64,000 nt of DNA from a virus. Below, piece by piece: positions 790 through 39,159 of this stretch (position 1 is the first letter of the stretch; each line of letters begins with the position of its first letter). The notes under the pieces are model-generated. The model made no database searches. It worked only from the letters and a program-made list of their open reading frames with translations, and was not told the origin of the DNA. The position numbers and the translations under genes are program-made. The stretch is from positions 62,001-126,000 of the IMG/VR virus record IMGVR_UViG_3300049215_000223, one strand, 5' to 3'.

Positions 790-2682
790 TTATGCCTGTA
801 CTTGTACTGATACTCCGTCCCAAGGACCGATTACGAAAGCATAGGTTTGTGTGGTGTTAGCATTAGCTAGCTGTAACCAAAGTTTACCACCATATAGATC
901 GCCACCAACTCCACCCTGAACAGCTTTCAGCCAACGACAACTTCCCTTACGAATTTTGCCTACAGGTGTAGCTCCAGTTAAAAGTGCTTGGTACGAAATA
1001 CACCATACATCTTCTAAAACGTAAGTATCATTATATGTATTTGCCAGTTTTTCTCTATCATAGTTATTTTGTGAGATAACTACAGTAGCCGAGGCTTGAG
1101 CAGTCATTAGACCAAATGTTCCATTTTGAAACGAATCATTGACTCCACCCCAACCACGCCTTCTCCAGAATCTAAAGTAATTATTTCCAATTGAAACATT
1201 TTGTGGTTGCCACAAATCTTGGCTTGCTGTTGTAAAGGTTGTAGTTTGAGCGGTTCTACTTGGGGTGAATATCGCATCAGCAGTTGGGCAATACCAAACA
1301 TATGGATCCACGTCGCCATCTTCTTGGTTATCAACTCGTGTAAATGCAAATCCCATGTACGAGCCAGCATTCACAAATGGCGTTCCAATTGCCAGAGTAA
1401 AAGAGCCGTCAGCTGATACTCCAGTACCATAAACATTGTTTACTGCAACAATAGCAGCTTTTCCTATATTATTAATGCTAGTTGAGTTACCAAACCAGTT
1501 AGAGGGCGTGTTTACACCACCGGTACCTTCAATTACAAATGTTCCGGCAGTTGGAAATCCATTATTAGTACCTCCGCCCGCAGGTGCGATGATTCCCGTA
1601 CATCCGGTACTTGTAGATAAACTAGAGAATCTAGAAGTAGATTCTGCATAACCATCTACGCACTGATAATATACTGTGCCCGATGTGGTAGTATTTTGTT
1701 TCCAGATAACAATTTCCCTGAAAAATTCAATTGCTGTTGCACTTGGCGTCACTGAAGCGCCCGATAAATCTCCAGTGATAACGTGAGTGTGATCCCAGCC
1801 ATGAGGGTCTGCTCCATATCCATCTACACGAGGTTGTACTACCAAATAACCTTGTCCTTGCGCAACTGAACCGCCTGTGGACATAGTTCCTGTACCACCA
1901 GAACATCCAGTAAAGCTGATTCCATTTGTTCCAGTATAGGTAACGGTCTGAACTCCAGCATTTGTAGTTACTAAAATAGTTCCTGAAGAGTAAAATCCAG
2001 TAGTAGAAGTAACGTTTATAACTGATTGTGGAAGAACAGCAGCATTAGAGCCCGATGTGATAGTAGTAGAAAAAGCAGAGGCATCAAACAAATATCCTAG
2101 CAATTCTCCTTTGGCTCCAGTTACAGCTTGTGAAATATTTTCTCCACGAATAAATGAGCCATTAATTCCAGGCGACTGTGCAGCTGCCAATGGCATTTTA
2201 AGTGTACTTGGACCTTGAGCATTCCACCATCCAGCTACCTGATCCACGCTAATAGCATTATTTCCAATTTGGCTGTTTGTTGGAATAGTTCCAATTCCTC
2301 CAGAGCATCCTGTAAAAGATGTTGCGCCCAAACCAGTATAAGTTATTGTTTGCCACCCATTAGCAGCAGTAGCCACTAAAATAGTACCTGAAGTAGGAAA
2401 GCCCGCAGTGGCTGGGTTGGTGGCAGTGTTTATTGTGGCTGCTGGCAAGTTTTGAGAACCAGTGCTTAAAACGTTAATGGCTGTATACGTATCTGCGAGT
2501 GCATTAGCATTAGCTCCCCACAAATCATTGCTAGACAAACCAGAGGTATCTTTAGAGGTACCGTTGCCGCTAGATTTATAAGTCCATCCAGAATTTTTTA
2601 AAGCACGTGTCATCTTCCAAATAGCACTGAATTCGTGGTTGGAACTGAGCGGTAGGTAGTTTGCTATAATTGTATTAACCAT
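790..2682 (-). CDS. Tail-fibre paralogue A, 630 aa
   Basis: This is the first of three tandem paralogues that share an N-terminal block (residues about 18-60, with AIWKMTRALKNSGW and a KDTSG motif), a central block with GADPHGWDHTH near residue 290, a QEDGDVDPY block, and a C-terminus with an arginine/tryptophan-rich RKGSCRW stretch followed by GPWDG. Two copies of a 55-65-residue beta-rich module (GTILVAT...QTITYTG...TSFTGCSGG type) sit at residues about 77-140 and 213-274. The composition (Gly, Ser, Thr, Asn, Tyr, Trp) and position in a fibre array support a receptor-contacting virion protein. The start at 2682 has an AGGA site seven bases upstream. The exact virion location is inferred. 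Confidence 0.8.
   Translation of the reverse strand: MVNTIIANYLPLSSNHEFSAIWKMTRALKNSGWTYKSSGNGTSKDTSGLSSNDLWGANANALADTYTAINVLSTGSQNLPAATINTATNPATAGFPTSGTILVATAANGWQTITYTGLGATSFTGCSGGIGTIPTNSQIGNNAISVDQVAGWWNAQGPSTLKMPLAAAQSPGINGSFIRGENISQAVTGAKGELLGYLFDASAFSTTITSGSNAAVLPQSVINVTSTTGFYSSGTILVTTNAGVQTVTYTGTNGISFTGCSGGTGTMSTGGSVAQGQGYLVVQPRVDGYGADPHGWDHTHVITGDLSGASVTPSATAIEFFREIVIWKQNTTTSGTVYYQCVDGYAESTSRFSSLSTSTGCTGIIAPAGGGTNNGFPTAGTFVIEGTGGVNTPSNWFGNSTSINNIGKAAIVAVNNVYGTGVSADGSFTLAIGTPFVNAGSYMGFAFTRVDNQEDGDVDPYVWYCPTADAIFTPSRTAQTTTFTTASQDLWQPQNVSIGNNYFRFWRRRGWGGVNDSFQNGTFGLMTAQASATVVISQNNYDREKLANTYNDTYVLEDVWCISYQALLTGATPVGKIRKGSCRWLKAVQGGVGGDLYGGKLWLQLANANTTQTYAFVIGPWDGVSVQVQA
1861..2046 (-). 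repeat. Fibre module copy, slot 2 of paralogue A
   Basis: Encodes residues about 213-274 of the 630-residue fibre and contains the core SSGTILVTT and FTGCSGGTG. It sits just before the GYLVVQPRVDG block. Paralogue C has a copy in the same slot; paralogue B lacks it there. Confidence 0.75.
2263..2454 (-). repeat. Fibre module copy, slot 1 of paralogue A
   Basis: Encodes residues about 77-140, core FPTSGTILVAT and TSFTGCSGG, just before the WWNAQGPSTLK block. Paralogue B has a closely similar copy in this slot; paralogue C joins directly across it. Confidence 0.75.
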
Positions 2683-2721
2683 TGTTATTCCTAGTAAAAT
2701 ACGTCCTTATTGATATGATTA

Positions 2722-4635
2722 TTAATAGGTGGTTGGGGTAGTATAACCGTCCCAAGGACCGATTAATAGTGATGCTTGTGGTAGGCCAGTTGGATTTTGA
2801 ACTCCTGATATAGAAATCCAACTTTTGGTATTAAAACCATACGTGGAATTTGCATCACTTACAGTGCATCTAATCCATCTAAGGGAACCTTTTCTAATTT
2901 TCATTCCTCCACCAATAGAGACTGCCCAAATAAAATCACCCATATATACATTAGAAAAGGCTGCCGCCTCTTTCTCACGATCCCAATAAGAAGCGGCATG
3001 ATGGAAATTAGAAATAGCTATCTGAGACGCGCCTGCGGCTGTTAGTGCTGGCATGCCATTAACCCCAGTATCACTGGTTGAAAAGCCACGACGGCGCCAC
3101 ATACGGAAAAAATAGCTTCCGGCACCTGGCGCATTCCATTGAGTTGTCAAAGTATTTGTATTTGTTTCAATTATATTTGTAGTAGATAATTTTGCAGATG
3201 GAATAGGTCCTGGGTTAACAAAATTTCCAGTTGTTAAAGTTCCTGAACCACCAGAACATCCGGTAAATTGATTTCCACCTGAAGTACCAGTAAATGTGAC
3301 ATATTGTGGTCCATTGGATGAGTTTACAAACATTGTTCCAGGATTTGTAAATGAACCAGTGCTAGATACGTTAATTGTTGCTTGTGGAAGAGTAGCTCCA
3401 TTAGAGCCTGCAGCAATTGTGACTGATGCAAGATCCCCGTCATTTGAGGGGGTCCAGAAAACATACGGATCCACGTCGCCGTCTTCTTGATTATCAGTTC
3501 GTTGATATCCCCAAAGTGTTTTATAATTGCCAGGAACAACTGATATGTCACGTGATACAGCCACTATAAATGAACCATCAGCGGATGTATTAGAGCTATA
3601 AGTGGCATTTGCTGCAATAATTTGAGATTTGCCTATATTGCTCAAAACCACGTTGTTAACAAATACTTCTTGTCCAGCTAATGAGCCACCAGTTCCTCCT
3701 GCTGTATAAGTCCCAGCAGTTGGGAATGCGTTACCAGATCCACCACCACCTGGAGCGACTGCTCCTGTACATCCTGCACTGCCAGCTAAAACAGATAATC
3801 TTTGCGCACTTTCAGAACTTTGATCAACACATTGCATATAAGTAGTTGCATTGTTAGTTGTTATACCCTTCCAAAATACAATTTCCCTAACAAACTCTAT
3901 TACAGTTGCACTAGGTGTAACGTTGGCGCCTGATATGGAGCCAGTAATTAAATGAGTGTGATCCCAACCATGAGGGTCTGCACCGGACCCATCAACACGA
4001 GGCATAACAACTAAGAATCCTTGTACAGCATATCCGTCAAAAATATAACCGATTATTTCGCCTTGAGCACCAGTAGTTGCTTGTGATATTATTTCGCCGC
4101 GCATGAAATAACCGTTAATACCTGGCACAGCAGAAGTAGTGATTGGAATTTTAAGGGTGCTTGGACCCTGGGCGTTCCACCAGCCCGCAACTGTATCCAT
4201 ATTAATTGCTGCATTGCCAATGGCACTTCCGGCTGGAATTGAACCAGTTCCACCAGAACAACCAGTAAAAGAGGTGCTGGTAGTGCCTGTATAAGTTATT
4301 GTTTGCCAACCATTAGCAGAGGTAGCTACTAAAATAGTACCTGAAGTAGGGAAGCCTGCAGTTTGTGGGTTAGTTGCATTGATAGATGCTGCTGGCAAGT
4401 TCTGAGGTCCACCAGTGCTAACAGTACCTATGCCAGCATAAATGTCGGTGGCGGGATCAGTGTTTCCTCCCCATAAATCATTGCTGGCAGTACCAGAAGT
4501 GTCTTTAGAAGAACCGTTACCGCTGGACTTATAAATCCATCCAGCCTTTTTCATGGCACGTGAAAGTTTCCACAAAATATTAAATGCATTAGTGCTATTT
4601 ACTGCTGTAAAATTGGGAAATATTACATTACTCAT
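2722..4635 (-). CDS. Tail-fibre paralogue B, 637 aa
   Basis: This paralogue has the same backbone as its two neighbours: N-terminal MSNVIFPNF and WKLSRAMKKAGWIYKSS, then GADPHGWDHTH, QEDGDVDPY, RMWRRRGF, RKGSLRW and a GPWDGYTTP ending. It has repeat modules in slots 1 and 3 but not slot 2. The ATG at 4635 overlaps the stop of paralogue C as ATGA. An in-frame GTG 30 bases upstream is unlikely because MSNVIFPNF aligns with the first residues of paralogue C. Translation is therefore probably coupled to paralogue C. Role: virion fibre, presumably receptor binding, inferred from the array and composition. Confidence 0.8.
   Translation of the reverse strand: MSNVIFPNFTAVNSTNAFNILWKLSRAMKKAGWIYKSSGNGSSKDTSGTASNDLWGGNTDPATDIYAGIGTVSTGGPQNLPAASINATNPQTAGFPTSGTILVATSANGWQTITYTGTTSTSFTGCSGGTGSIPAGSAIGNAAINMDTVAGWWNAQGPSTLKIPITTSAVPGINGYFMRGEIISQATTGAQGEIIGYIFDGYAVQGFLVVMPRVDGSGADPHGWDHTHLITGSISGANVTPSATVIEFVREIVFWKGITTNNATTYMQCVDQSSESAQRLSVLAGSAGCTGAVAPGGGGSGNAFPTAGTYTAGGTGGSLAGQEVFVNNVVLSNIGKSQIIAANATYSSNTSADGSFIVAVSRDISVVPGNYKTLWGYQRTDNQEDGDVDPYVFWTPSNDGDLASVTIAAGSNGATLPQATINVSSTGSFTNPGTMFVNSSNGPQYVTFTGTSGGNQFTGCSGGSGTLTTGNFVNPGPIPSAKLSTTNIIETNTNTLTTQWNAPGAGSYFFRMWRRRGFSTSDTGVNGMPALTAAGASQIAISNFHHAASYWDREKEAAAFSNVYMGDFIWAVSIGGGMKIRKGSLRWIRCTVSDANSTYGFNTKSWISISGVQNPTGLPQASLLIGPWDGYTTPTTY
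3217..3405 (-). repeat. Fibre module copy, slot 3 of paralogue B
   Basis: Encodes a diverged copy (core NPGTMFVNSS and QFTGCSGGSG) inserted after the QEDGDVDPYVFW block. The other two paralogues have no module at this position. Confidence 0.7.
4216..4407 (-). repeat. Fibre module copy, slot 1 of paralogue B
   Basis: Encodes a copy nearly identical in core (FPTSGTILVATSANGWQTI) to slot 1 of paralogue A, suggesting recent exchange or duplication. Confidence 0.75.
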
Positions 4636-11522: not shown

Positions 11523-11885
11523 ATGAGTTCTTTGAAGAAAATGGCAGATTTAGCTAATAAATTTGAACATAAACTTGCCCAAGTTCAACATACTCAAAGT
11601 GCACAGCCTAGTGAGCTGGAAAAGGCATTAAGAGCTGCCGGGGTTAGACCAGAAGCCGAACATATTGCGCCCTTTTTGGATAAGGCTAGGGTACCAACTG
11701 ATGCCTCCGTAAATGTTCAACTTAAAGTAAATCCTAATCAAAGTGTATCTTTTGTGACGACACCAGTATTTGCTGCTTTAAATGGTTTGCTTAACCAAGC
11801 ATATTCAAATAAAATGCAAGCCGCCCTAAAAGCAGCAAACTTGGCACCAGCTGAACCAATGGTGCTTAACCTGGCAACATTTTAA
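11523..11885 (+). CDS. Unknown 120-aa protein
   Basis: First gene of the rightward accessory block, with a strong AGGAG site six bases before its ATG. The product is alanine-rich and mostly helical by composition: an N-terminal segment with charged residues (MSSLKKMADLANKFEHKLAQ), a central KLKVNPNQSVSFVTTPVFAAL strand-like part, then an alanine-rich helix. I recognise no domain and see no membrane segment. Being leader-proximal it would be made in the largest amount from any promoter in the divergent region. Confidence 0.7.
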   Translation: MSSLKKMADLANKFEHKLAQVQHTQSAQPSELEKALRAAGVRPEAEHIAPFLDKARVPTDASVNVQLKVNPNQSVSFVTTPVFAALNGLLNQAYSNKMQAALKAANLAPAEPMVLNLATF

Positions 11886-11920: not shown

Positions 11921-12574
11921 ATGTCATTTCAAGATCTAGTAACCGCAGCGCAACAGTATTTCCCTGATTTACAAATTAAGTATAAAAACCAATCATTATT
12001 CATGAAAATTTTAGGAATGATTTTATTTTTCAATCCTACATTCATGACCTCTTACATTACCACTATTGGTTCTACAGTATATTTCCCAAATACTGATGAA
12101 ATTAATAATAGACCAAATTCAGCAGCTATTGTTCTTTTACATGAATTAGTTCATATTCACGATTCTAAAAAATGGGGAAGATTGTTATTTTCATTTTTAT
12201 ATCTAACACCACAAGTTTTCTTATTGTTGGCTATACCCGCACTATTAATAATCTGGAAAATAGCTTTAGTGCTTTTTCTATTATTTGCATTGCCTTTTCC
12301 GTCTTATTTCAGAATGCTTTTTGAAAAAAGAGCTTATCTAACATCTTTATATGTTTTGAATGCATATGGTAAAAAACAGAATTTTCCACCCCTTCTTGCT
12401 TCTCAAAAAGATATCTGGATAAAACATTTTAAGGATTCCAGCTATTATTTTATGTGGACATTTAGTAACATCGATAAAGATTTTGATGCTGCTGTTGTAA
12501 AAATTCAGGCAGGACAAAGACCTTTTGAAGATCCTGTCTTCGATATTATAGACAATCTAATCGCGGTGATATAA
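11921..12574 (+). CDS. Membrane-bound HExxH zinc metalloprotease-like protein, 217 aa
   Basis: Residues 74-78 read HELVH, the zincin signature, with His74, Glu75 and His78 as predicted zinc ligands and general base. A possible third ligand is Glu135 in FEKRAYL, in the place where such proteases carry a Glu in a following helix. One or two hydrophobic segments cover residues about 88-126, and a shorter one about 28-45, so the protein is probably an integral membrane enzyme with its active site at the membrane face. At 217 residues it is smaller than HtpX. An AGG-containing ribosome site precedes the ATG. A candidate promoter for the next gene lies in its last codons. Substrate unknown; it might process phage or host membrane proteins. 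Confidence 0.75.
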   Translation: MSFQDLVTAAQQYFPDLQIKYKNQSLFMKILGMILFFNPTFMTSYITTIGSTVYFPNTDEINNRPNSAAIVLLHELVHIHDSKKWGRLLFSFLYLTPQVFLLLAIPALLIIWKIALVLFLLFALPFPSYFRMLFEKRAYLTSLYVLNAYGKKQNFPPLLASQKDIWIKHFKDSSYYFMWTFSNIDKDFDAAVVKIQAGQRPFEDPVFDIIDNLIAVI

Positions 12575-12575
12575 T
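12549..12575 (+). promoter_or_regulatory. Candidate extended -10 promoter
   Basis: TAGACA at 12549-12554 and TATAAT at 12570-12575 are separated by 15 bases, and the -10 is extended (TGATATAAT). It overlaps the end of the protease gene. Predicted transcription start would fall only a few bases before the ATG at 12585, which has no ribosome site, so the message could be nearly leaderless. Confidence 0.4.
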
Positions 12576-12584
12576 AACCGTTAC

Positions 12585-13796
12585 ATGAGTAATTTTGATG
12601 TTGGAATTATTGGGGCTGGTGTAGCTGGAGCTTTTGCCACTTTAAAAATGGCAAAAGACCACAAAGGGGCAAAAACCATCCTATTCGATTTAGGTCGCCC
12701 ACCTATGAAGCGCAGAAGACAACTCGAAGGTTGGCTTGGTTGTTTACCCAACAGTGATGGTAAGCTGTATCTTAATGATATGGACAAAGTATCTAATTTA
12801 GTAGGCTCCAGAAAAGCTAAATCATCTTTTAATTATTTTGAAAAAGTAATTTCAAATGTAAATGACTTTAAGGTAATTAAAGACAAATCTCCATCTATTT
12901 CTATGGAAAAGAAATTAGCAAAAAATGGATATGATTTATCTTTAAATGATCATATCCAAATTTATCCAAAAGATATTCATGCTTTGTCTAAGTATATGGC
13001 AGAGACTATAGAACAGTCTAAAAATATTACATATTGTTTCGACAATGAAGTGAAGAAAATTTACAAGAATAAAAGTCATTTTACCATTGTTTCTGAAAAT
13101 CAAGAATATAAATGCAAGAAATTAATCATAGCTGTAGGTCGTAGTGGCTGGCGCTGGGCTAAAGAGTTGTATTCCGATTTTGGCATCATTGACAATAATG
13201 ATGTGGCTAAATTTGGAATTCGTATAGAAGTTAGCTCTAGTATAATGAAAGATTTTAATAAATCAAACTGCACTCTTACCAAAGGAGATATTGAAATTGG
13301 ACCATTCTCTTGGTTTGGTACAGTTATTCCGGAAGATCATATAGATTTAGCTATATCTGCCTTTCGTTCTAATGAAAATCGTTGGAAATCTGATAAAGTT
13401 TCTTTTTCTCTAATTGGCAGTCGCCCATATCCTGGAAAAGGTTTTGAACAAACAGATAGAATTGGCAAACTAACTTTTGTGTTAGCCAATGATAGAATCA
13501 TTAGAGAAAGAGTGTCTCATATCTTAAATGGCAAAAGTAAAATCTCTATTCTGATACCAGAGTATGAGTGGCTAAAGGCGGCAATCACAGAGCTGTCAGC
13601 TGTAGTGCCAGAAATATCTACAAAGGCTTATTTCCACGTACCAACCATTACAGCAATGGCTCCACAAATCAATATTGGAACCAATTTAGAAACCGAAATT
13701 GATGGTATGTTTGTAGTTGGCGAAAGTGCCGGAATCCATGGTATATTAGCTGCTGGAACCATGGGCATTATCGCCGCTGACCACGTATGCAAATGA
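12585..13796 (+). CDS. FAD-dependent oxidoreductase, 403 aa
   Basis: The N-terminus is a clear dinucleotide-binding fold: GAGVAG (residues 10-15) after a hydrophobic strand, and an acidic Asp35 at the end of the second strand (TILFDLG). The C-terminus has the matching FAD-contact segment GMFVVGESAGIHGILAAGT with a small helix after it, as in uncharacterised bacterial FAD-dependent dehydrogenases. The middle region with VAKFGIRIEVSS resembles the substrate domain of these proteins. I cannot name the substrate. Such a flavoprotein is unusual in a phage and could modify tRNA, a cofactor or a nucleotide-linked sugar. It begins 10 bases after the membrane protease gene and lacks a ribosome site, so it is either coupled to that gene or expressed from its own promoter. 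Confidence 0.8.
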   Translation: MSNFDVGIIGAGVAGAFATLKMAKDHKGAKTILFDLGRPPMKRRRQLEGWLGCLPNSDGKLYLNDMDKVSNLVGSRKAKSSFNYFEKVISNVNDFKVIKDKSPSISMEKKLAKNGYDLSLNDHIQIYPKDIHALSKYMAETIEQSKNITYCFDNEVKKIYKNKSHFTIVSENQEYKCKKLIIAVGRSGWRWAKELYSDFGIIDNNDVAKFGIRIEVSSSIMKDFNKSNCTLTKGDIEIGPFSWFGTVIPEDHIDLAISAFRSNENRWKSDKVSFSLIGSRPYPGKGFEQTDRIGKLTFVLANDRIIRERVSHILNGKSKISILIPEYEWLKAAITELSAVVPEISTKAYFHVPTITAMAPQINIGTNLETEIDGMFVVGESAGIHGILAAGTMGIIAADHVCK

Positions 13797-13803
13797 GAAA
13801 CTA

Positions 13804-14160
13804 ATGGCTAATAAAACACATTCAGATGGAACAAGCACCTCTACAACTTCGGAAGAACCAAAAGATCGGAACTCCAAATATAGTTTTGGTAAATTCGAAT
13901 ATGATCTTTACCACGAAGAAGATGATGTTTCTTTGCCCGTAGTCAGAGTGAAGCATGTCAGCATGCCTAACAAAGGTGAGCGCTGGAAAATCTTCGAAGA
14001 TAATAAAGTAGTTTTTGTGGTTGAAGGCGCTAAGCTGAACAATAAAGAAAAAGATTTTTTGAGGGGAATTGATGGGGTAAATTTCTTAATTGCTCAGCAT
14101 AAATCTGGTATTAAATCATTTAATTCGCTTAAGACCGAGATCAAAAAAAGATTGAAATAA
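13804..14160 (+). CDS. Unknown 118-aa protein
   Basis: Starts 7 bases after the oxidoreductase stop, so probably in the same message. The first 28 residues are a low-complexity Ser/Thr-rich tail (THSDGTSTSTTSEE); the rest alternates beta-like (PVVRVKHVSM, KVVFVVEGAK) and lysine-rich helical segments. No cysteines, membrane segment or known motif. Function unknown. Confidence 0.7.
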   Translation: MANKTHSDGTSTSTTSEEPKDRNSKYSFGKFEYDLYHEEDDVSLPVVRVKHVSMPNKGERWKIFEDNKVVFVVEGAKLNNKEKDFLRGIDGVNFLIAQHKSGIKSFNSLKTEIKKRLK

Positions 14161-14223
14161 ATTGAGCTTGACGGCTCCATTACAATGATTAAACTAAACT
14201 GGTAATATAGCCAGGAGTATTCT

Positions 14224-14814
14224 ATGGATTTTGTACTTTATGTTGCAGACTGTGAAACCACTGGTCTAGACTCTCGTATTCATGACGTGATCGAACTTTC
14301 CTTACTCAGGTTGAGCGATGGTGCCCAAAAGACTTGGTGCCTGAAGCCATTTAGTCCAGATGCCATTGATGTTGCATCTCTCAGAATCAATGGACACAAG
14401 ATGGAAGATTTGCGTCATGAAACGAAGGATGGACGTGGAAGATATCTAGACCCCAATGTGGTTATAGTGGATATCGAAAATTGGATTATGGAAGACGGCG
14501 TGCCTGCCGAACAACGAGTGTTGGTTGGACAAAACGTCGCCTTCGACCGCGAAAGATTTGAACAGCTTTGGAATAAGTGTAACTCGAAAGATTCTTATCC
14601 TTTTGGAAGAAGAATGATGGACACAATGATGTTGGCTTTTATGTTAGATTATGTTCAAGGGACTATGGCTGAGGGCTATAGCCTAAATAATTTAATTAAG
14701 AGATATGGAATCAAAAATAAACAGGCTCACTCAGCAGAAAGCGATGTTCTTGCCACAAAAGAATTATTTGAAGCCCAGATGAATGATTTAAAAAAGAAGT
14801 TGGGTATTAAATGA
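14224..14814 (+). CDS. DEDDh 3'-5' exonuclease, 196 aa
   Basis: All residues of the DnaQ/RNase T family are visible: Asp9 and Glu11 in VADCETTGLD, Asp108 in GQNVAFDRERF, and His169 with Asp174 in HSAESDVLATKEL, which makes it the DEDDh type. The length fits a stand-alone domain with no polymerase attached. It probably trims DNA or RNA 3' ends in the cytoplasm, as a proofreading partner, in recombination or in RNA turnover. A CCAGGAG ribosome site lies upstream in a 63-base spacer, the longest in this block, so a separate promoter is possible. It is followed closely by the GT-B-like gene. Confidence 0.9.
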   Translation: MDFVLYVADCETTGLDSRIHDVIELSLLRLSDGAQKTWCLKPFSPDAIDVASLRINGHKMEDLRHETKDGRGRYLDPNVVIVDIENWIMEDGVPAEQRVLVGQNVAFDRERFEQLWNKCNSKDSYPFGRRMMDTMMLAFMLDYVQGTMAEGYSLNNLIKRYGIKNKQAHSAESDVLATKELFEAQMNDLKKKLGIK

Positions 14815-14829
14815 AAATTTGTAGGGCAT

Positions 14830-15816
14830 ATGTTGAAAATACTTTATGCGGCAAGTAATAACGAGAATGCAAAAATTCAACTGTCTCGTTTTTTAGCAGC
14901 CATTAAGGACAAGCCTTATACTGTCAAGGTAGCCGCATATAAGAAATCAAGTCCCCAAGTCAATATAGACTGGACTTTAGATTGCTTGCAGAATATGTTC
15001 AAGCCAGATCTAGTATCATTAGATAATGATAATTTTGAGACCTATTTTGAACAAGTAAAGTACTACGCTCCCGATCTAATCATTAGTGATATGGAGTATT
15101 TTACTTCCTATATTGCTGGAGTCCTAGAAACTACACTATGGCAGTGTAGTTCATCTCTCATTAACTTTGCAGTGACTGATCAAGAGAAATACAATCTTGG
15201 ACTCTTTAAAAGATATTCATTTCTCTTGGAGAAAAATAATCCTCTACGCACTCAGCGAACAGTTAATATCATAGATAATTCTAATTACAAATTCGTGTAT
15301 TCTCATCTAGGAGATTGTGTGACGCCTCCTGCCTTAAAAGAGGGATTTGAGTGGATTAGACCATATCATTCGATAGCAAAAGAATCTGTTCCATGTCGCC
15401 ATAATCTTGTGGCAGGCATGTTACGTAATAATAAAAACATTTTCACTCTTCTTCGCAGATATCCAGATTCGGTGGCTTTCACTGAATTCAACGAAGAACA
15501 GCACACAAATCTGTCGCTGAAGGATATAGAGAACCAGGAAGAATATTTTTGTAATCTGAAAAATTCAAACCTTTTCATTTGTGAGGGGCAGACTAGTTTT
15601 TTAGCGGATGCCTTTTACAATAACAAATACTCTGTGGTAATGCCCAACTTCAAAGACGTAGAGTGCATCACCAATAGTATTTTCTCGGAGCATCGAAAAC
15701 TAAGTTCCAATATTTATGAATTTTCTGAGAACATAGAGGAATACCTCAATCGACCGATTATTAGTAATTACAATGATCGTGTGCAATTCTTACACGAAAG
15801 ACTGGACGAATTATGA
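14830..15816 (+). CDS. Probable GT-B-fold glycosyltransferase, 328 aa
   Basis: The start (MLKILYAASNNENAKIQLSRFLAAI) resembles the first Rossmann strand and helix of MurG/UGT-type enzymes, followed by APDLIISDMEYFTSYIAG, a pattern typical of the acceptor half. The C-terminal half has NLFICEGQTSFLADAFYNNK followed by VVMPNF, the place where GT-B enzymes carry their nucleotide-sugar loop. I see no metal-binding DxD, as expected for GT-B. The acceptor and sugar are unknown. It overlaps the HAD phosphatase gene as ATGA, so the two are coupled and may act in one sugar pathway. The family call is moderate: residue patterns fit but no invariant motif settles it. Confidence 0.55.
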   Translation: MLKILYAASNNENAKIQLSRFLAAIKDKPYTVKVAAYKKSSPQVNIDWTLDCLQNMFKPDLVSLDNDNFETYFEQVKYYAPDLIISDMEYFTSYIAGVLETTLWQCSSSLINFAVTDQEKYNLGLFKRYSFLLEKNNPLRTQRTVNIIDNSNYKFVYSHLGDCVTPPALKEGFEWIRPYHSIAKESVPCRHNLVAGMLRNNKNIFTLLRRYPDSVAFTEFNEEQHTNLSLKDIENQEEYFCNLKNSNLFICEGQTSFLADAFYNNKYSVVMPNFKDVECITNSIFSEHRKLSSNIYEFSENIEEYLNRPIISNYNDRVQFLHERLDEL

Positions 15817-16421
15817 AGTACATAGCATTAGATATCGGTAACGTATTATGTGATATGAAGCCTATGCCGTTTTTAGAGAGTCTATCTGAGACTTTCAACA
15901 TAACTATTCCAGAAGCACATCGCTTTCTCAAAAGATTCCAACAACTACATGATCTTGGTTATACTAACATGGAAGATGAGTTAAAAGACAAATTTAATGT
16001 CAAGTCTCCTATAGTAATCAAAAAGCTGGTTGATGGTTGGAATGATTCAGTTAATACTAATCTTCATGTTATTAATAGGCTGAACAATCTAAGAGAGAAT
16101 CATGGGCTTCAAGTTGCTTTGCTGTCCAACATAGGAGTAGAACATGCTACTATGGTTGAAAGTAAATTGGCACATGGCGGATTCTTTGACAATGCTATCA
16201 AACATTTCAGCTGTTTTGTCGGGGCTCGTAAGCCATCCTTTATCTTTTATCAAAGCTTTCTATTACAATATCCTGAATTTAAAAATTGTTTATATGTCGA
16301 TGATTTAAAGGAAAATCTAATTGCATCTAAACCATTTGGATTCCAAACTTTCAGATTAGCTTTAGATGAGCATGATGTGAATGCTAAAATAGACGAACTA
16401 GAGGCTGAAATAGTTGGATAA
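15813..16421 (+). CDS. HAD-superfamily hydrolase, 202 aa
   Basis: Motif I is DIGNVLCD with the nucleophile Asp7; the DxGNV form is the one seen in YihX-like phosphatases, where the second Asp of the usual DxD is replaced. Motif II is in VALLSNIG, motif III the lysine of GARKPS, and motif IV the paired aspartates of LYVDDLKEN. The residues between motifs I and II form the helical cap expected of subfamily I. It likely removes phosphate from a small metabolite such as a sugar phosphate or nucleotide. It starts inside the stop of the GT-B-like gene (ATGA), so translation is coupled. Confidence 0.85.
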   Translation: MKYIALDIGNVLCDMKPMPFLESLSETFNITIPEAHRFLKRFQQLHDLGYTNMEDELKDKFNVKSPIVIKKLVDGWNDSVNTNLHVINRLNNLRENHGLQVALLSNIGVEHATMVESKLAHGGFFDNAIKHFSCFVGARKPSFIFYQSFLLQYPEFKNCLYVDDLKENLIASKPFGFQTFRLALDEHDVNAKIDELEAEIVG

Positions 16422-16466
16422 ATGATGATATATTTAGTTGTAGAGCCAAATTAAAAGGAATATACA

Positions 16467-16955
16467 ATGGTTAAAGCTGAAGAAAAGAAAGTTAACAAGT
16501 TTCAACAACCTGGCAGAGTCAAAGTTATCAAGGGAAGCATTCTCACTCCAGAAAATGCTGGACTACGCTTTGTCTTGAGCATTAACAATATGGAAGGCAA
16601 GCCAGATGGCAACCCTCTTTTGCCAATTTTTGATAAGAAATGGAAGAAGGTTAAGGAAGAAAGTCGTGGTTGGTATGCAACTAAGACTGGTGCCTATAAG
16701 TTAGGTGCTATCAATACCACCGCTGTCCAAAGCGACACTTGGGTTATTCATATGCTTTGCCAAGATGGAAAGTTTAATACTGATACGAAGGCTCTTGAGG
16801 AATGTTTGAAGAAGGTTTGCGCTAGTGCTAAGTATGAACGCGCAAGTGTTCACGTTAGCACCGTGCTAACTGGCGCCGTTCCTGAGTTGACTGATTTGCT
16901 CAATACCTGCCTAGTAGAGCAGGGTGTATCTGTTTCGTTCTACGAAGAGCCATAA
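16467..16955 (+). CDS. Diverged macro-domain protein, 162 aa
   Basis: The C-terminal half follows the Appr-1''-p-processing/macro pattern: YKLGAINTTAVQSDTWVIHM, then a helix with ALEECLKKVCASA, then ASVHVSTVLTGAVPELTDLL and VSVSFYEEP, matching the strand-helix order in which canonical members read SVHMPRIG-type then GLAGG. Here the glycine-rich phosphate loop is altered. The N-terminal half has VIKGSILTPENAG and LSINNMEGKPDGN in the place of the first ribose-binding loop. Macro domains bind or hydrolyse ADP-ribose derivatives, so the protein may act on ADP-ribosylated targets or NAD-derived signals. The changed loops may mean binding without catalysis. An AAAAGGA site precedes the ATG. Confidence 0.65.
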   Translation: MVKAEEKKVNKFQQPGRVKVIKGSILTPENAGLRFVLSINNMEGKPDGNPLLPIFDKKWKKVKEESRGWYATKTGAYKLGAINTTAVQSDTWVIHMLCQDGKFNTDTKALEECLKKVCASAKYERASVHVSTVLTGAVPELTDLLNTCLVEQGVSVSFYEEP

Positions 16956-17128
16956 TGCAACCATTAAAGAAAACTGTTACAACAACAGTGAATGTAAGTC
17001 CTCGCATTGCTGACCTTGTTTACTTTGCGCGCTCACTAGCTAATCGCGATATAAAGAGTCTTTCAGACGGAGAGCTGATTGAGCTTGCTGAGTGTTTTTG
17101 GGATACGGAGCACGGCGAAGACGATTGA
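16955..17128 (+). CDS. Small 57-aa protein
   Basis: An ATG at 16955 overlaps the macro-gene stop as TAATG and opens a 57-codon frame to TGA at 17126-17128. The product starts MQPLKKTVTTTVNVSPRIAD and continues with an acidic helix (SLSDGELIELAECFWDTE). The tight overlap, the same style as neighbouring couplings, and the absence of a competing frame support it. Function unknown; it might be a partner of the macro protein. Confidence 0.65.
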   Translation: MQPLKKTVTTTVNVSPRIADLVYFARSLANRDIKSLSDGELIELAECFWDTEHGEDD

Positions 17129-17153
17129 GAATGCCATAATCTAGCATTCTCTT

Positions 17154-17537
17154 ATGGTCAATTTAAAACCCGGTGATCGTGTAGACTGCCGTGTGAAGGC
17201 TAATGCTATCGTTGGTCCGTATAGAGATTACGATATACTTAAAACCTTTGAGATAGTCGCTACCGATCAATATGGTTATTACCTGTATGTTCCTATACAC
17301 TTGACCATCAAAGGATCAGTTAAGGCAGATCAGTATCAGTGTAAGCAATTAGGAATTGACAAACGATTTGTAGATGAACGGATTATCTACATTCAAGGCA
17401 ATTTAGTATTTCAAATTAACCATATAATGGATGGAATGTGCTGCGCCAGATGTAGAGAGTTTTATCCAATGGCTAGCGCCAACCAAGACGATGGCACGCT
17501 AATCTGTTTTAGTTGCCGCTCTAATCCCTATAGATAA
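17154..17537 (+). CDS. Small zinc-ribbon protein, 127 aa
   Basis: The N-terminal 85 residues form a beta-rich domain beginning LKPGDRVDCRVK, which looks like a small OB or SH3-like barrel. The last 40 residues carry two Cys pairs (CCARC and CFSC, 20 residues apart) that should bind one zinc. I recall this arrangement from other phage proteins but know no function; a nucleic-acid-binding role is plausible. The frame ends 18 bases before the HNH remnant, which is in the same reading frame. Confidence 0.7.
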   Translation: MVNLKPGDRVDCRVKANAIVGPYRDYDILKTFEIVATDQYGYYLYVPIHLTIKGSVKADQYQCKQLGIDKRFVDERIIYIQGNLVFQINHIMDGMCCARCREFYPMASANQDDGTLICFSCRSNPYR

Positions 17538-17662: not shown

Positions 17663-19783
17663 TTACCAAATTACGGTAATAAATCCAAGTGCACCTGTAG
17701 CTCCAGGACCGCCTACGCCAGCAACACCGCCTGCCGCGCCGCCGCCGCCTCCACCACCACCTGCACCGCTATTAGCTGTAGGTGCGGCACCAATTAGACC
17801 AGATCCGCCAGCAGCGCTACCACCATTTCCACCATTAGCAGGAATAGCTGTACCGTGAGTGTTAATACCACCAACACCACCACCGCCGCCGCCACCATGG
17901 TTGTTACCGTCATTAGGTCCACCAACTCCACCTACGTTACCAGAAGGCGGGGAAGAGGCTGCTACAAGAACAGCTACAACAGAACCGTTGGCGCCATTGT
18001 TGTTACCGTTTCCACCAATTCCAGCATTGCCTCCAGGGTTGATACCTGGAACACCACTTGCTCCATAAGCTGATGAACTTCCGCCTACTCCACCAGCGCC
18101 ACCAGAACCTGCTCCACCGTTTGCACCAGCAGAACCGCCCTGTGCTCCTAAGAAGAAGATGCCGGTTCCACCAAAGCTAGAGTCGCCTCCGTTTCCACCT
18201 GCACCAACTGGAGAGTTCGTGCCACCAGCACCAGGGCTGCCAATATTGATATTGAGTACACTGCCTGGAACAAGTCCAGTAACTAATACGTGTGATACTG
18301 CTGCTGCACCACCGCCGCCTCCTCCGCCGCCGCCGCCGAATGGGCTGCCTGCACCTGCTGCGCCTTGTCCGCCACCTCCGCCGCCTCCACCGCCACCAGC
18401 GCCACGAACTTGAACAACAGTTACGTTAGCTGGAACTGTGAAAGTACCAGAAGCATTAAAGGTTTGAGCAAACAATACACCAGTTGGTGTAGCAGCTCCA
18501 GCTGGACCTGTTGGACCGGTTGCGCCTTGAGGACCGGTTGGTCCGGTTGCTCCTGCTGGACCTGTTGGACCAGTAGCTCCCGTAACACCTTGAGGACCAG
18601 CTGCACCAGCAGGTCCTGTTGGTCCAGTTGCGCCAGCAGGACCTGTCGGACCTGTAGTTCCTATAGTTCCACTTGGACCCTGAGGTCCGGTAGGACCTGT
18701 AGCTCCTGCTGGACCTGTTGGACCAGTTGGACCTTGTGGACCAATGCTTCCAGTTGCGCCTGCAGGACCTGTTGCACCAGTTATGCCAGCAGGACCAGTT
18801 GGACCTGTTGGACCCTGTACTCCTGCTCCTGTTGGACCTTGAACGCCTGCTGGAGAAACTAAGCCACCACCACCAATGAAAACACCAGGCGAAGAGTTAG
18901 TATTATAACCAAGATTAGTAACAAGAAGTTGTATATCAGAGACAACACTCGCTACTTGATAGTAACCACCACTTGCAACAAATATATTCTCGCCTGCAAC
19001 AACCCAAGTAGCAGTTGCAATTGACACAGATATTTGAGTACCAACAGCAGGTTGAGTATATCCGGCAACAAGTTGTGTAACAGCTGGTAATCCGTTAATT
19101 CCGTTAGCACCATTGGTTCCATTAGTGCCTGGAGTTCCAGTTGGACCTGCTACACCAGTAACACCTGGTGTGCCAGCAGGAGTAACTAATACGTTACCGC
19201 TAATTGTGGCTCCTGGTGAAGCATTGCCCGCAACTGCTAAATTGGTGACAGTAATTTGATTACCAGTATGAGAAGTTATTTTGTAATAACCGCCAGTGCT
19301 AATAAAGACAGTTTCTCCATCAGCTGCCCAAGTAGTAGTTACGACTGAAACGGTAACGCTAGCATTAGCAGCTGGCTGGGTAAAGCTAGATGTAGTAGTC
19401 GTATATGCAGGAGCACCACCCGGACCAGTTGCTCCAGTGCCTCCCTGAGAGCCTGCTGGACCTATTGTTCCTGTTGGACCTTGTGGACCTGTAGCGCCTG
19501 CTGGACCCGTTGGACCAGTAACTCCTTGAATGCCTGTTGAACCAATAGTTCCGGTCGGACCTTGTGGACCTGCGGGACCTGTTGGACCCTGAGGTCCGGT
19601 AGGACCTGTTGGACCCGTTGGACCGATAGGACCTCCGTTAGGACCTGTTGGACCTGCGGGACCTGCGGGACCTGTTGGACCTGGAGGACCGTCTGGTCCG
19701 ATTGGTCCTATGATTTGTACGTCGGGATCGGTAACGTATTTAGTTCCATCCCATCTAACGTATCCTGGTCTCAAGATTGGCAT
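17663..19783 (-). CDS. Collagen-like tail fibre with polyglycine tip, 706 aa
   Basis: Two blocks of Gly-X-Y triplets ([13 protein letters not shown] type, about residues 26-130 and 315-432) flank two copies of an 80-residue beta domain with GGYYKITS or GGYYQVAS and VTNLxxxxN. After the second collagen block comes [19 protein letters not shown], then 200 residues of very glycine-rich sequence, a pattern known in glycine-rich fibre tips and in the polyglycine sandwich of T-even-like adhesins. The fold would be a trimeric collagen-type shaft with a glycine-rich receptor-binding end. The short N-terminus ([13 protein letters not shown]) likely attaches to the virion. An AAGGA ribosome site lies inside a hairpin, downstream of an 18-nt promoter-like motif, so expression is probably controlled at two levels. 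Confidence 0.9.
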
Positions 19784-37547: not shown

Positions 37548-37798
37548 TATCTTACTCCAGAATCTTCACACTGATCTAAATCATCATTATCTCTAATAGA
37601 ACGTTCAGTATATACTTTTATTGCGCTAATTGCATAAACATGAACAATTTGATCTTCTAGCCATTTTACAGTTGGTTTAAGACGAATAAACCAACCTTCT
37701 ACTGGTTGCAGAATACCAATTATAGATCTTCCCTGAAGAACTACTTCAATTTCTTTACCAACTAACTCTTTTAAGTAGTCGTTGATATGCGTTTTCAT
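37547..37798 (-). CDS. LSm-like small protein, 83 aa
   Basis: Residues 8-65 follow the Sm/LSm strand pattern: LVGKEIEVVLQGRSIIGILQPV, then WFIRLKPTVKWLEDQIVHVYAISAIKVYTE, with an N-terminal helix before the first strand as in Hfq. An acidic C-terminal tail follows. Such proteins usually form rings that bind RNA. It starts inside the stop of the tubulin-like gene (ATGA) and ends inside the start of the histidine-repeat gene (TAATG), so all three should be made together. Confidence 0.65.
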   Translation of the reverse strand: MKTHINDYLKELVGKEIEVVLQGRSIIGILQPVEGWFIRLKPTVKWLEDQIVHVYAISAIKVYTERSIRDNDDLDQCEDSGVR

Positions 37799-39159
37799 GG
37801 CTTTCTCCTATCAACCACTCCACCAACTAACTTGCCGAAAGCAGAAGACTTCTGAGAAATCTTTTCTTTGATTTTCTGAGCAGCCGAAATAGTTTCATTC
37901 GTACCAGTCTCTAGTTGTAGATTTAAGTTACGGGCGTCATCCTTGCCCTTGACAGTTTGCATGTGCTCTTGCGCATCCTTCTTTAGTTGAGTAACGCGAG
38001 AGTCTGGCAAACCAAGTCCAGAGAACATAGAATAGACCTTGACAACTGGGTCAGGAGTCTCTACAGTATAGATTCCCTTAAAAACTCCTTTAGGAGTTCC
38101 GCATTGATCATTAACCATTGCCATAGCATAAGTAATACTAGAGCTTGGAATCTTTGCCCAAACATCTTTGTTTGCAGCAATGATAATTCCGACATATCTA
38201 GATTGCTTGAGGTCAAAACCACCTGCAAGCAAGTTGCCGTTCAAGTTATTAACGACAGCCTCTGCAATAGCGGTGTCCTCAGAAAAATTATCGACAGTAA
38301 GCTCACCATAAATCGTGAGACCTTCACCATCGGTGAATAGCTTTCCCCATTCCATCGGATCGAGTCCTTTGACCGACGATGGCATGGAGGAAAGTGTATT
38401 GAACACATCAATGGTTTCAACAATTGCCTTATTAGCAATACCATAAAAATCAACTTGATTTACATCATGATAAATTGCTTCAATCTTAGCATTGTCAACA
38501 ACAATTAGATTGTTAACCTTTTTAGATTGGGTAAGTTTTGCTAGCTTAGAAAGAGTTTCTAAAGCATTAGCCTTAGTCTGGGCGTCCTCTGTATCCATTG
38601 GTAGAACAGTCATTACAACCAATGGTTTACCAAGACTGGACATTATATCTACAAGGGTCTCACAGGAACCCGCACCAGAACCACCACCTAAGCTAAGACA
38701 CAATACGTTGACTTGGGAGCTAGCCAATTTGTCGTTGATCAATTGAGTAATCTCGCCACGATGAGACTCAGCAGCAGCTTTACCAATCTCGACTTCTTTG
38801 GCAGCGCCACCCAAACCGTACTCAAGAAGCAATTTATTAGAATCTGGAATATCAATGAACTTCAAATCTTGCATGGCAGTATTTACGGCAACTGCATCAT
38901 AACCTAACTTATAAAATGCCTCAGCTAATCTAGATCCGGCTTGACCTGAACCTAATACTCCAAGGACTATGCTTCTATCTTTCTTCGAAACTATTTTTGC
39001 TGCCATCTTACTCTCCTGTTGCTTGGCTTGACTTTTGGCTTTTAGTGCTGCTAATTTACTTTGATCAACTTGATCTGAGGCAGCCTTAACTTCTTGTGAT
39101 GAAATATCATCAACTACTTCTTCTTGTTTAACTTCTTCTGTTACGGACGTTGCTGGCAT
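37795..39159 (-). CDS. Tubulin/FtsZ-superfamily GTPase, 454 aa
   Basis: The core runs from about residue 63 to 400. It has the first nucleotide loop GVLGSGQAGSRLAE (67-80), AVNT (91-94) in the T3 position, the tubulin signature loop GGGSGAGS (158-165), a sugar/base contact region near VDNAKI (221-226), and in the T7 position GLDPMEWGKLF, where Asp267 and Glu270 fit the two acidic residues that trigger GTP hydrolysis in the neighbouring subunit. So polymerisation and hydrolysis are both expected. The N-terminal 60 residues are a charged, coiled extension and the last 50 a basic tail, making it longer than FtsZ or PhuZ. It could form filaments that position phage DNA, capsids or a replication compartment. 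An AGGAG site precedes the ATG; the LSm-like gene is coupled downstream. Confidence 0.88.
   Translation of the reverse strand: MPATSVTEEVKQEEVVDDISSQEVKAASDQVDQSKLAALKAKSQAKQQESKMAAKIVSKKDRSIVLGVLGSGQAGSRLAEAFYKLGYDAVAVNTAMQDLKFIDIPDSNKLLLEYGLGGAAKEVEIGKAAAESHRGEITQLINDKLASSQVNVLCLSLGGGSGAGSCETLVDIMSSLGKPLVVMTVLPMDTEDAQTKANALETLSKLAKLTQSKKVNNLIVVDNAKIEAIYHDVNQVDFYGIANKAIVETIDVFNTLSSMPSSVKGLDPMEWGKLFTDGEGLTIYGELTVDNFSEDTAIAEAVVNNLNGNLLAGGFDLKQSRYVGIIIAANKDVWAKIPSSSITYAMAMVNDQCGTPKGVFKGIYTVETPDPVVKVYSMFSGLGLPDSRVTQLKKDAQEHMQTVKGKDDARNLNLQLETGTNETISAAQKIKEKISQKSSAFGKLVGGVVDRRKP

Follow-up and report, generated by a model that had tools for sequence, protein, structure and literature searches.

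Putative membrane gluzincin and flavoenzyme genes of uncultivated phages appear to be old neighbours rather than a fixed two-gene system

The window analysed here is a stretch of 64,000 nucleotides corresponding to positions 62001-126000 of an IMG/VR virus record of 178,722 bases. On its plus strand, eight genes lie within positions 11921-17537, flanked by minus-strand genes for fibre-like and collagen-like proteins. The first encodes a membrane gluzincin-like protein of 217 residues (the zincin; ATG start, 11921..12574) and the second an FAD-dependent oxidoreductase of 403 residues (ATG start, 12585..13796); both open reading frames are present, and the spacing of 10 bases from stop to start given in the original prediction is correct. 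On the same strand there follow a 118-residue protein (P118, 13804..14160), an exonuclease of the DnaQ/RNase_T type (14224..14814; PF00929, E 4.2e-10; phrog_192, E 4.2e-27), a weakly assigned glycosyltransferase-like protein (P328, 14830..15816; Glyco_trans_1_3, E 3e-05, 23.8 bits against a cut-off of 25), an equally tentative HAD-like hydrolase (15813..16421; PF00702, E 0.0026, below the cut-off), a 162-residue protein (P162, 16467..16955) and a 127-residue protein with C-terminal CxxC pairs (P127, 17154..17537). The 5′ neighbour of the zincin gene, also on the plus strand, is variable among related loci and here encodes a 120-residue protein (11523..11885) with a match to the PRODH N-terminal domain that stays below the cut-off of 26 (E 6.5e-05, 23.6 bits). 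P162 has no Pfam match and may resemble a macro-like domain; relatives 24-27% identical to it occur in 11 Streptomyces phage records, in one of which the match overlaps a gene annotated Sir2.

By PHROGs, the record as a whole encodes a DNA helicase, a DnaB-like helicase, a ribonucleotide reductase, an endolysin, a PhoH-like protein and a weak match to PhuZ tubulin, a gene content from which we conclude that it derives from a large tailed phage. The PhuZ-tubulin match (37795-39159, minus strand; phrog_4733, E 1.9e-7), weak as it is, suggests phage spindle or nucleus-like biology. Downstream of the eight genes, the 706-residue collagen-like protein (17663-19783, minus strand) has long G-P-T/Q repeats, and the plus-strand open reading frames that run across its gene are probably spurious.

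Our analysis upholds the assignment of the first gene product as a zincin, which carries an HELVH motif at residues 74-78 (His74/Glu75/His78) and, on helix 126-153 of its structural model, a candidate third ligand, Glu135, that would bind the metal. In a 25-member alignment H74, E75, H78, R131, E135, Y139 and W179 are invariant, among others, and in the wider family 84 of 84 zincins have the HExxH motif and keep both histidines and the Glu135 column. A strongly hydrophobic stretch (approximately residues 93-128, Kyte-Doolittle values up to 2.68) separates the HExxH helix from that of Glu135, and the model, with a mean pLDDT of 87.8, places helices over it; the term "membrane" in the original prediction is apt insofar as it denotes a single stretch of this kind. 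The spacing from the first His to the Glu is at least 56 residues in 69 of the 84 zincins and 31 or 37 residues in the other 15. None of these 15 short forms is adjacent to an FAD gene. A reading of them as a soluble form without the membrane stretch is not upheld, since 14 of the 15 keep a hydrophobic stretch (Kyte-Doolittle 1.61-2.26), L061 (1.03) being the only exception. Several of the short forms, which include those of L096, L097, L099-L101, L107, L112, L113, L117, L123, L125, L128 and L131, adjoin a phrog_107 exonuclease gene or a gene for a trypsin-like protein. Comparison of the window with locus L001 gives values of pN 0.231 vs pS 0.729 for the zincin gene and pN 0.126 vs pS 0.790 for the FAD gene, with pS near saturation, pointing to purifying selection on both. 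The two genes are real and conserved, and not products of chance.

Profile searches give the zincin weak matches to several known families and a convincing match to none. No Pfam family scores above its own cut-off in the members examined. The nearest model is eCIS_core (PF13699), which 10 of 25 zincins match weakly around the HExxH motif, all members seen remaining below its curated cut-off of 22 (the best, L048, at 21.9 bits; the window at 12 bits); further weak matches among the 25 are to M56 in three (best E 0.038), M76 in three (0.21) and M48 in one (0.046). PHROGs yielded nothing convincing for the 25 members (best E 0.0047), and NCBIfam no match for the window zincin. Against solved structures, the family profile weakly reaches MJ1213 (proabylysin) over residues 50-105 (E 0.077-0.15). 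A Foldseek search with the model returned no PDB match at E <= 0.001 and none in BFVD, and the best match of a second fold search (VIA), 3cmn, lies below the level taken as meaningful (Z 5.2, 169 residues aligned, rmsd 4.9). With the motif kept and no confident fold match, we therefore classify the protein as a gluzincin by motif.

The flavoprotein is more readily connected to known proteins. Its designation as an FAD oxidoreductase stands on matches above cut-off to FAD/NAD Rossmann families of Pfam (GIDA, 39.8 bits against 22.1; Pyr_redox_2, 35.2 bits against 26.1), on a conserved N-terminal GxGxxG, and on its predicted fold. An identity as GidA / MnmG is not supported, the GIDA match being short and generic (residues 132-200, profile positions 95-166 of 391). 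The model (mean pLDDT 79.8, with residues 37-57 and 246-266 at low confidence) finds its best fold match in VP0956 (3nlc; Z 26.6, rmsd 3.5, 352 of 403 residues aligned at 20% identity), followed by 4cnj (Z 21.3), whereas directly by sequence the family profile reaches 3nlc only at E 0.0015. The same profile finds five cellular-type proteins on faecal scaffolds (E 1e-20 to 1e-32), and the faecal-scaffold protein L146, which is 62% identical to a Eubacterium eligens 'FAD-dependent protein', itself reaches 3nlc by sequence (E 7.6e-15). In a tree of 28 rows, both phage types of the flavoprotein (the window type and a distant type described below) fall on one side and ten cellular-type sequences, two of them long branches, on the opposite side, with support 100/99. 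Sequence and model together thus place the protein in the VP0956 / 'NAD(FAD)-utilizing dehydrogenase' family, as a branch specific to phages whose predicted fold agrees with 3nlc over most of the chain (352 of 403 residues) and which is shorter, at about 403 residues against 534 modelled in 3nlc. Cellular members, named 'NAD(FAD)-utilizing dehydrogenase' or 'FAD-dependent protein', correspond to COG2509. A thioredoxin reductase or FFTR is not supported, as the invariant or near-invariant columns of 45 FAD sequences hold no Cys pair; Cys229 is the only Cys column to reach 90%. Given that it has no CxxC pair, we read the enzyme as a putative dehydrogenase or reductase that uses flavin. The invariant stretches WxGTVIPEDH and RxNExRW may surround its substrate pocket.

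Both genes had been predicted to be unusual for phages, and this holds for cultured phages: in 50,697 phage records, tblastn found no match to the window zincin and six weak matches to the FAD protein, all on unannotated human-faecal scaffolds, of which at least four resemble Bacillota chromosomal or plasmid proteins. No virion family was assigned to either protein, in line with the prediction that neither has an obvious virion role. Searches with PADLOC gave no match for the zincin, the FAD protein or P118 at E <= 0.01, and for the exonuclease matches to generic DEDDh models only. In genome contigs, two peptide patterns, a weak test, confirmed no cellular relative of the zincin. The faecal-scaffold FAD protein gave no match in 80 genomes from the phylum of the Thioploca MAG described below, an empty result that carries no weight. 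The available portions of the literature searched, including PMC3890501, PMC9123017, PMC7824862 and PMC9503650, contain no account of the zincin or of the gene block.

To place the two genes in context we compared related loci. Among 134 fetched (L001-L134), 104 distinct loci were kept and 30 dropped, namely second fetches of the same contig, the near-identical L008, L034 and L053 (set aside by judgement), the window itself (L019) and a record 100% identical to it (L014). This last record, of 193,526 bases, matches the window at 100% identity in every query gene that it carries (L014, 1-6819) and stops within the FAD gene at residue 131. The 104 loci include 49 with an FAD gene of the window type and three (L087, L104, L126) with one of a distant type, whose FAD protein is 26% and whose zincin 40% identical to that of the window. 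In all 49 window-type loci the FAD gene, P118 and the DnaQ-like exonuclease occur together, as recognized by profiles built from these loci; P328 accompanies them in 46, the HAD gene in 35, P162 in 34, P127 in 25 and the upstream 120-residue gene in 19. An independent scan for the P118 family, by closer alignment, recovered 22 contigs, all 22 of which were already in the FAD set. The partner of the FAD enzyme, if one exists, would from these co-occurrences therefore be P118 rather than the zincin, and the original prediction was right to include the 118-residue gene in the unit, where it is inseparable from the FAD gene and the exonuclease in 49 of 49 loci. At the three distant-type loci, no P118, exonuclease, glycosyltransferase-like or HAD gene was found.

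The zincin gene follows a looser pattern. Counting as adjacent a zincin open reading frame on the same strand that starts at most 2600 bases before the FAD open reading frame, and leaving out L032 for insufficient upstream sequence, we find that 48 window-type loci have enough upstream sequence to be scored. A zincin gene lies beside the FAD gene, with matching orientation, in 28 of these and in all three distant-type loci, so that the pair is indeed kept in other genomes; the other 20 of the 48 have none. The gap between the two genes is at most 100 bases in 27 of 32 pairs, window included, and in the distant type the genes overlap by 4 bases. In two loci an open reading frame resembling, by eye, a GIY-YIG homing endonuclease lies close by, between the zincin and FAD genes in L012 (2232-3038) and 5′ of the FAD gene in L007 (4703-5452). 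When 22 FAD-locus records without an adjacent zincin were searched, four carried one elsewhere, two of these relocated zincins being full-length and beside ThyX. Conversely, in 50 zincin records with no FAD gene in the fetched stretch, many of them fragments, the FAD gene was not detectable in 46, a large number even though absence from a metagenomic fragment is weak evidence; it was present in the other four, in two cases as a fragment at the end of the contig. Zincin genes without an FAD gene occur in several settings: beside ThyX (L058, L059), and adjoining an exonuclease gene with the portal gene on one side and the head maturation protease gene on the other (L083, L085, L086, L091, L102). 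The original prediction was to count as refuted if each gene were often found alone. This is what we see, and an obligate zincin-FAD pair is ruled out by the 20 of 48 FAD loci without a zincin and the 46 of 50 zincin records without an FAD gene. Of the candidate accessory system originally proposed, what survives is an association that extends beyond one genome (28 of 48 and 3 of 3 loci, with 27 of 32 gaps at most 100 bases); what falls is the notion of one obligate system. Because each is often found alone, the zincin and FAD genes seem to have been neighbours for a long time rather than to form a fixed unit, and the claim of a new two-gene system is weak.

The trees bear on how this association arose. 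On an FAD tree of 53 rows, the presence or absence of the zincin needs 10 changes in the best tree, compared with a mean of 16.2 in shuffles, and at least four of the changes are forced by well-supported branches; the zincin was therefore lost or gained several times, and a single loss is ruled out. Over 26 loci, the distances of the zincin correlate with those of the FAD protein at r 0.79, equal to FAD-exonuclease (0.79) and below the values of 0.86 for FAD-P118 and 0.84 for FAD-P328, and zincin and FAD co-diverge no more tightly than the other block genes. A positive zincin-FAD partial correlation of 0.22, without a significance test, remains across these loci when the other genes are removed. 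A tree of the zincins puts those of the distant type together with members unaccompanied by an FAD gene (98% SH-aLRT). An M24 peptidase gene lies upstream in 11 window-type and all three distant-type loci, and this shared gene implies that old synteny alone can hold the pair together.

We suggest that both genes are part of a block that uncultivated huge tailed phages have inherited vertically, in which the flavoenzyme is a core member and the membrane protease, probably directed at the host, can be separated from the rest; we consider the chances of this proposal evenly balanced. The constant core of the block would be the FAD enzyme, P118 and the DnaQ-like exonuclease, mostly followed by the glycosyltransferase-like gene. 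As a dehydrogenase or reductase, the FAD enzyme would have as its target a small molecule or a bound substrate lodged between its FAD and substrate domains. The zincin, for its part, would be a minimal gluzincin in which a membrane hairpin joins the catalytic helix and the helix of the third ligand. As such a hairpin brings the chain back to the side from which it entered, and as the protein shows no signal peptide, both metal-ligand helices would sit on one face of the membrane, presumably the cytosolic side of the inner membrane. By analogy, the targets of the zincin during takeover are most likely host proteins in the membrane or associated with it, because the zincin is patchy, often lost or relocated and found in varied neighbourhoods, and patchily distributed phage peptidases have been argued to be host-directed in the accessible part of one study (PMC7824862). 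The zincin and FAD genes would then probably be co-expressed, their products acting separately.

Closest to this proposal is the view that the two proteins form a functional pair, a membrane protease and a redox enzyme acting on one host process, for example redox-gated cleavage at the inner membrane. Same-orientation adjacency in 28 of 48 and 3 of 3 loci, although the two FAD types are only 26% identical and their downstream genes differ, speaks for it, as do the 4-base overlaps of the distant type, the gaps of at most 100 bases in 27 of 32 pairs and the placement of both phage FAD types together opposite the ten cellular-type relatives (support 100/99). Against it stand the 20 of 48 FAD loci and 46 of 50 zincin records in which one gene occurs alone, the relocation of the zincin in 4 of 22 records and the lack of any co-divergence in excess of the block genes, while the M24 peptidase gene is likewise common to 11 window-type and the three distant-type loci and the distant-type zincins group with FAD-less ones. 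We regard a functional pair as a tentative possibility, and prefer inheritance as a block with a separable zincin because of the shared M24 synteny, the absence of excess co-divergence and the grouping of distant-type with FAD-less zincins. Two observations nonetheless weigh against block inheritance: zincin-FAD adjacency survives in L087, L104 and L126 without the other block genes, and the positive partial correlation persists. Plain block inheritance explains the distant-type adjacency less well than a functional link does. A bolder form of such a link, which we consider doubtful, is an ancestral huge-phage module that predates the split between the FAD types, in which a membrane gluzincin of a family outside Pfam and PHROGs is gated by or serves a phage-specific flavoenzyme and remodels the host inner membrane or redox state; its genes would have stayed adjacent in both types and been dropped where hosts do not require the module.

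The remaining readings part the two genes altogether or question the locus itself. If the zincin trimmed phage structural proteins during virion maturation, with the FAD gene unrelated, its place in the window beside fibre-like and collagen-like genes and, in five loci, between the portal and head maturation protease genes would make sense, and such a role has been proposed for another zincin, of group 1 jumbo phages, in the accessible part of PMC7824862. We nevertheless think this unlikely, given that a head maturation protease is already encoded at each of these five loci, that 20 of 48 close relatives lack a zincin beside the FAD gene, and that a membrane hairpin would be unexpected in a head protease. 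Less probable still is a system for nucleic-acid or nucleotide modification formed by the FAD enzyme, exonuclease and glycosyltransferase-like protein, with the zincin as a passenger; the three occur in 49, 49 and 46 of the 49 loci and the GIDA model is matched above cut-off, but that match covers a short generic stretch (residues 132-200), and neither an exonuclease nor a glycosyltransferase-like gene lies beside the distant FAD type. That the arrangement is an artefact or captured host DNA seems barely conceivable: although the window comes from a metagenomic record of 178,722 bases without established ends, the same gene order recurs across dozens of records that are independent of one another, 26 of the 49 contigs in the FAD set exceed 200 kb, the window itself carries phage genes by PHROGs (helicase, DnaB, endolysin, PhuZ), and both genes are under purifying selection.

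Set against known proteases, the zincin shares the HExxH motif and a downstream Glu with the integral-membrane gluzincins M48, M56 and M76, to which it has no significant profile match. A comparable hairpin between the metal-binding helices is found in HtpX/Ste24-type proteases. The same HExxH and downstream Glu are shared with minimal gluzincins such as proabylysin (MJ1213, PDB 4qhf, family M95); in contrast to soluble proabylysin, the zincin is predicted to have a membrane hairpin between the two metal-binding helices. Proabylysin is called the smallest Glu-zincin in the available part of PMC3890501. By their description in the accessible part of PMC7824862, the zincin-like peptidases of jumbo phages (SprT-like, ArdC-like and a group 1 zincin) likewise combine HExxH with large phages, and some of these peptidases, patchily distributed, are proposed there to target host proteins; unlike the window zincin, which has no tblastn match in 50,697 phage records, they come from sequenced jumbo phages.

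Two things are new here: a motif-defined gluzincin family that is not described in Pfam or PHROGs, and a branch formed by phage proteins within a flavoprotein family already known. Members of the former, predicted to be membrane zinc proteases, come from at least 84 distinct phage loci and retain their metal-ligand residues without exception. That flavoenzyme, P118 and exonuclease form a constant trio throughout a deep set of huge phages suggests some ordinary need of these phages and offers a concrete target for biochemistry. Among the matches listed, the only window-type FAD gene on a cellular contig is that of L135, a 4.3 kb contig in a Thioploca MAG that is itself of phage type, with the 120-residue gene, FAD, P118 and exonuclease in phage order within positions 1611-4264; its presence in that MAG is a possible, weak hint to the host.
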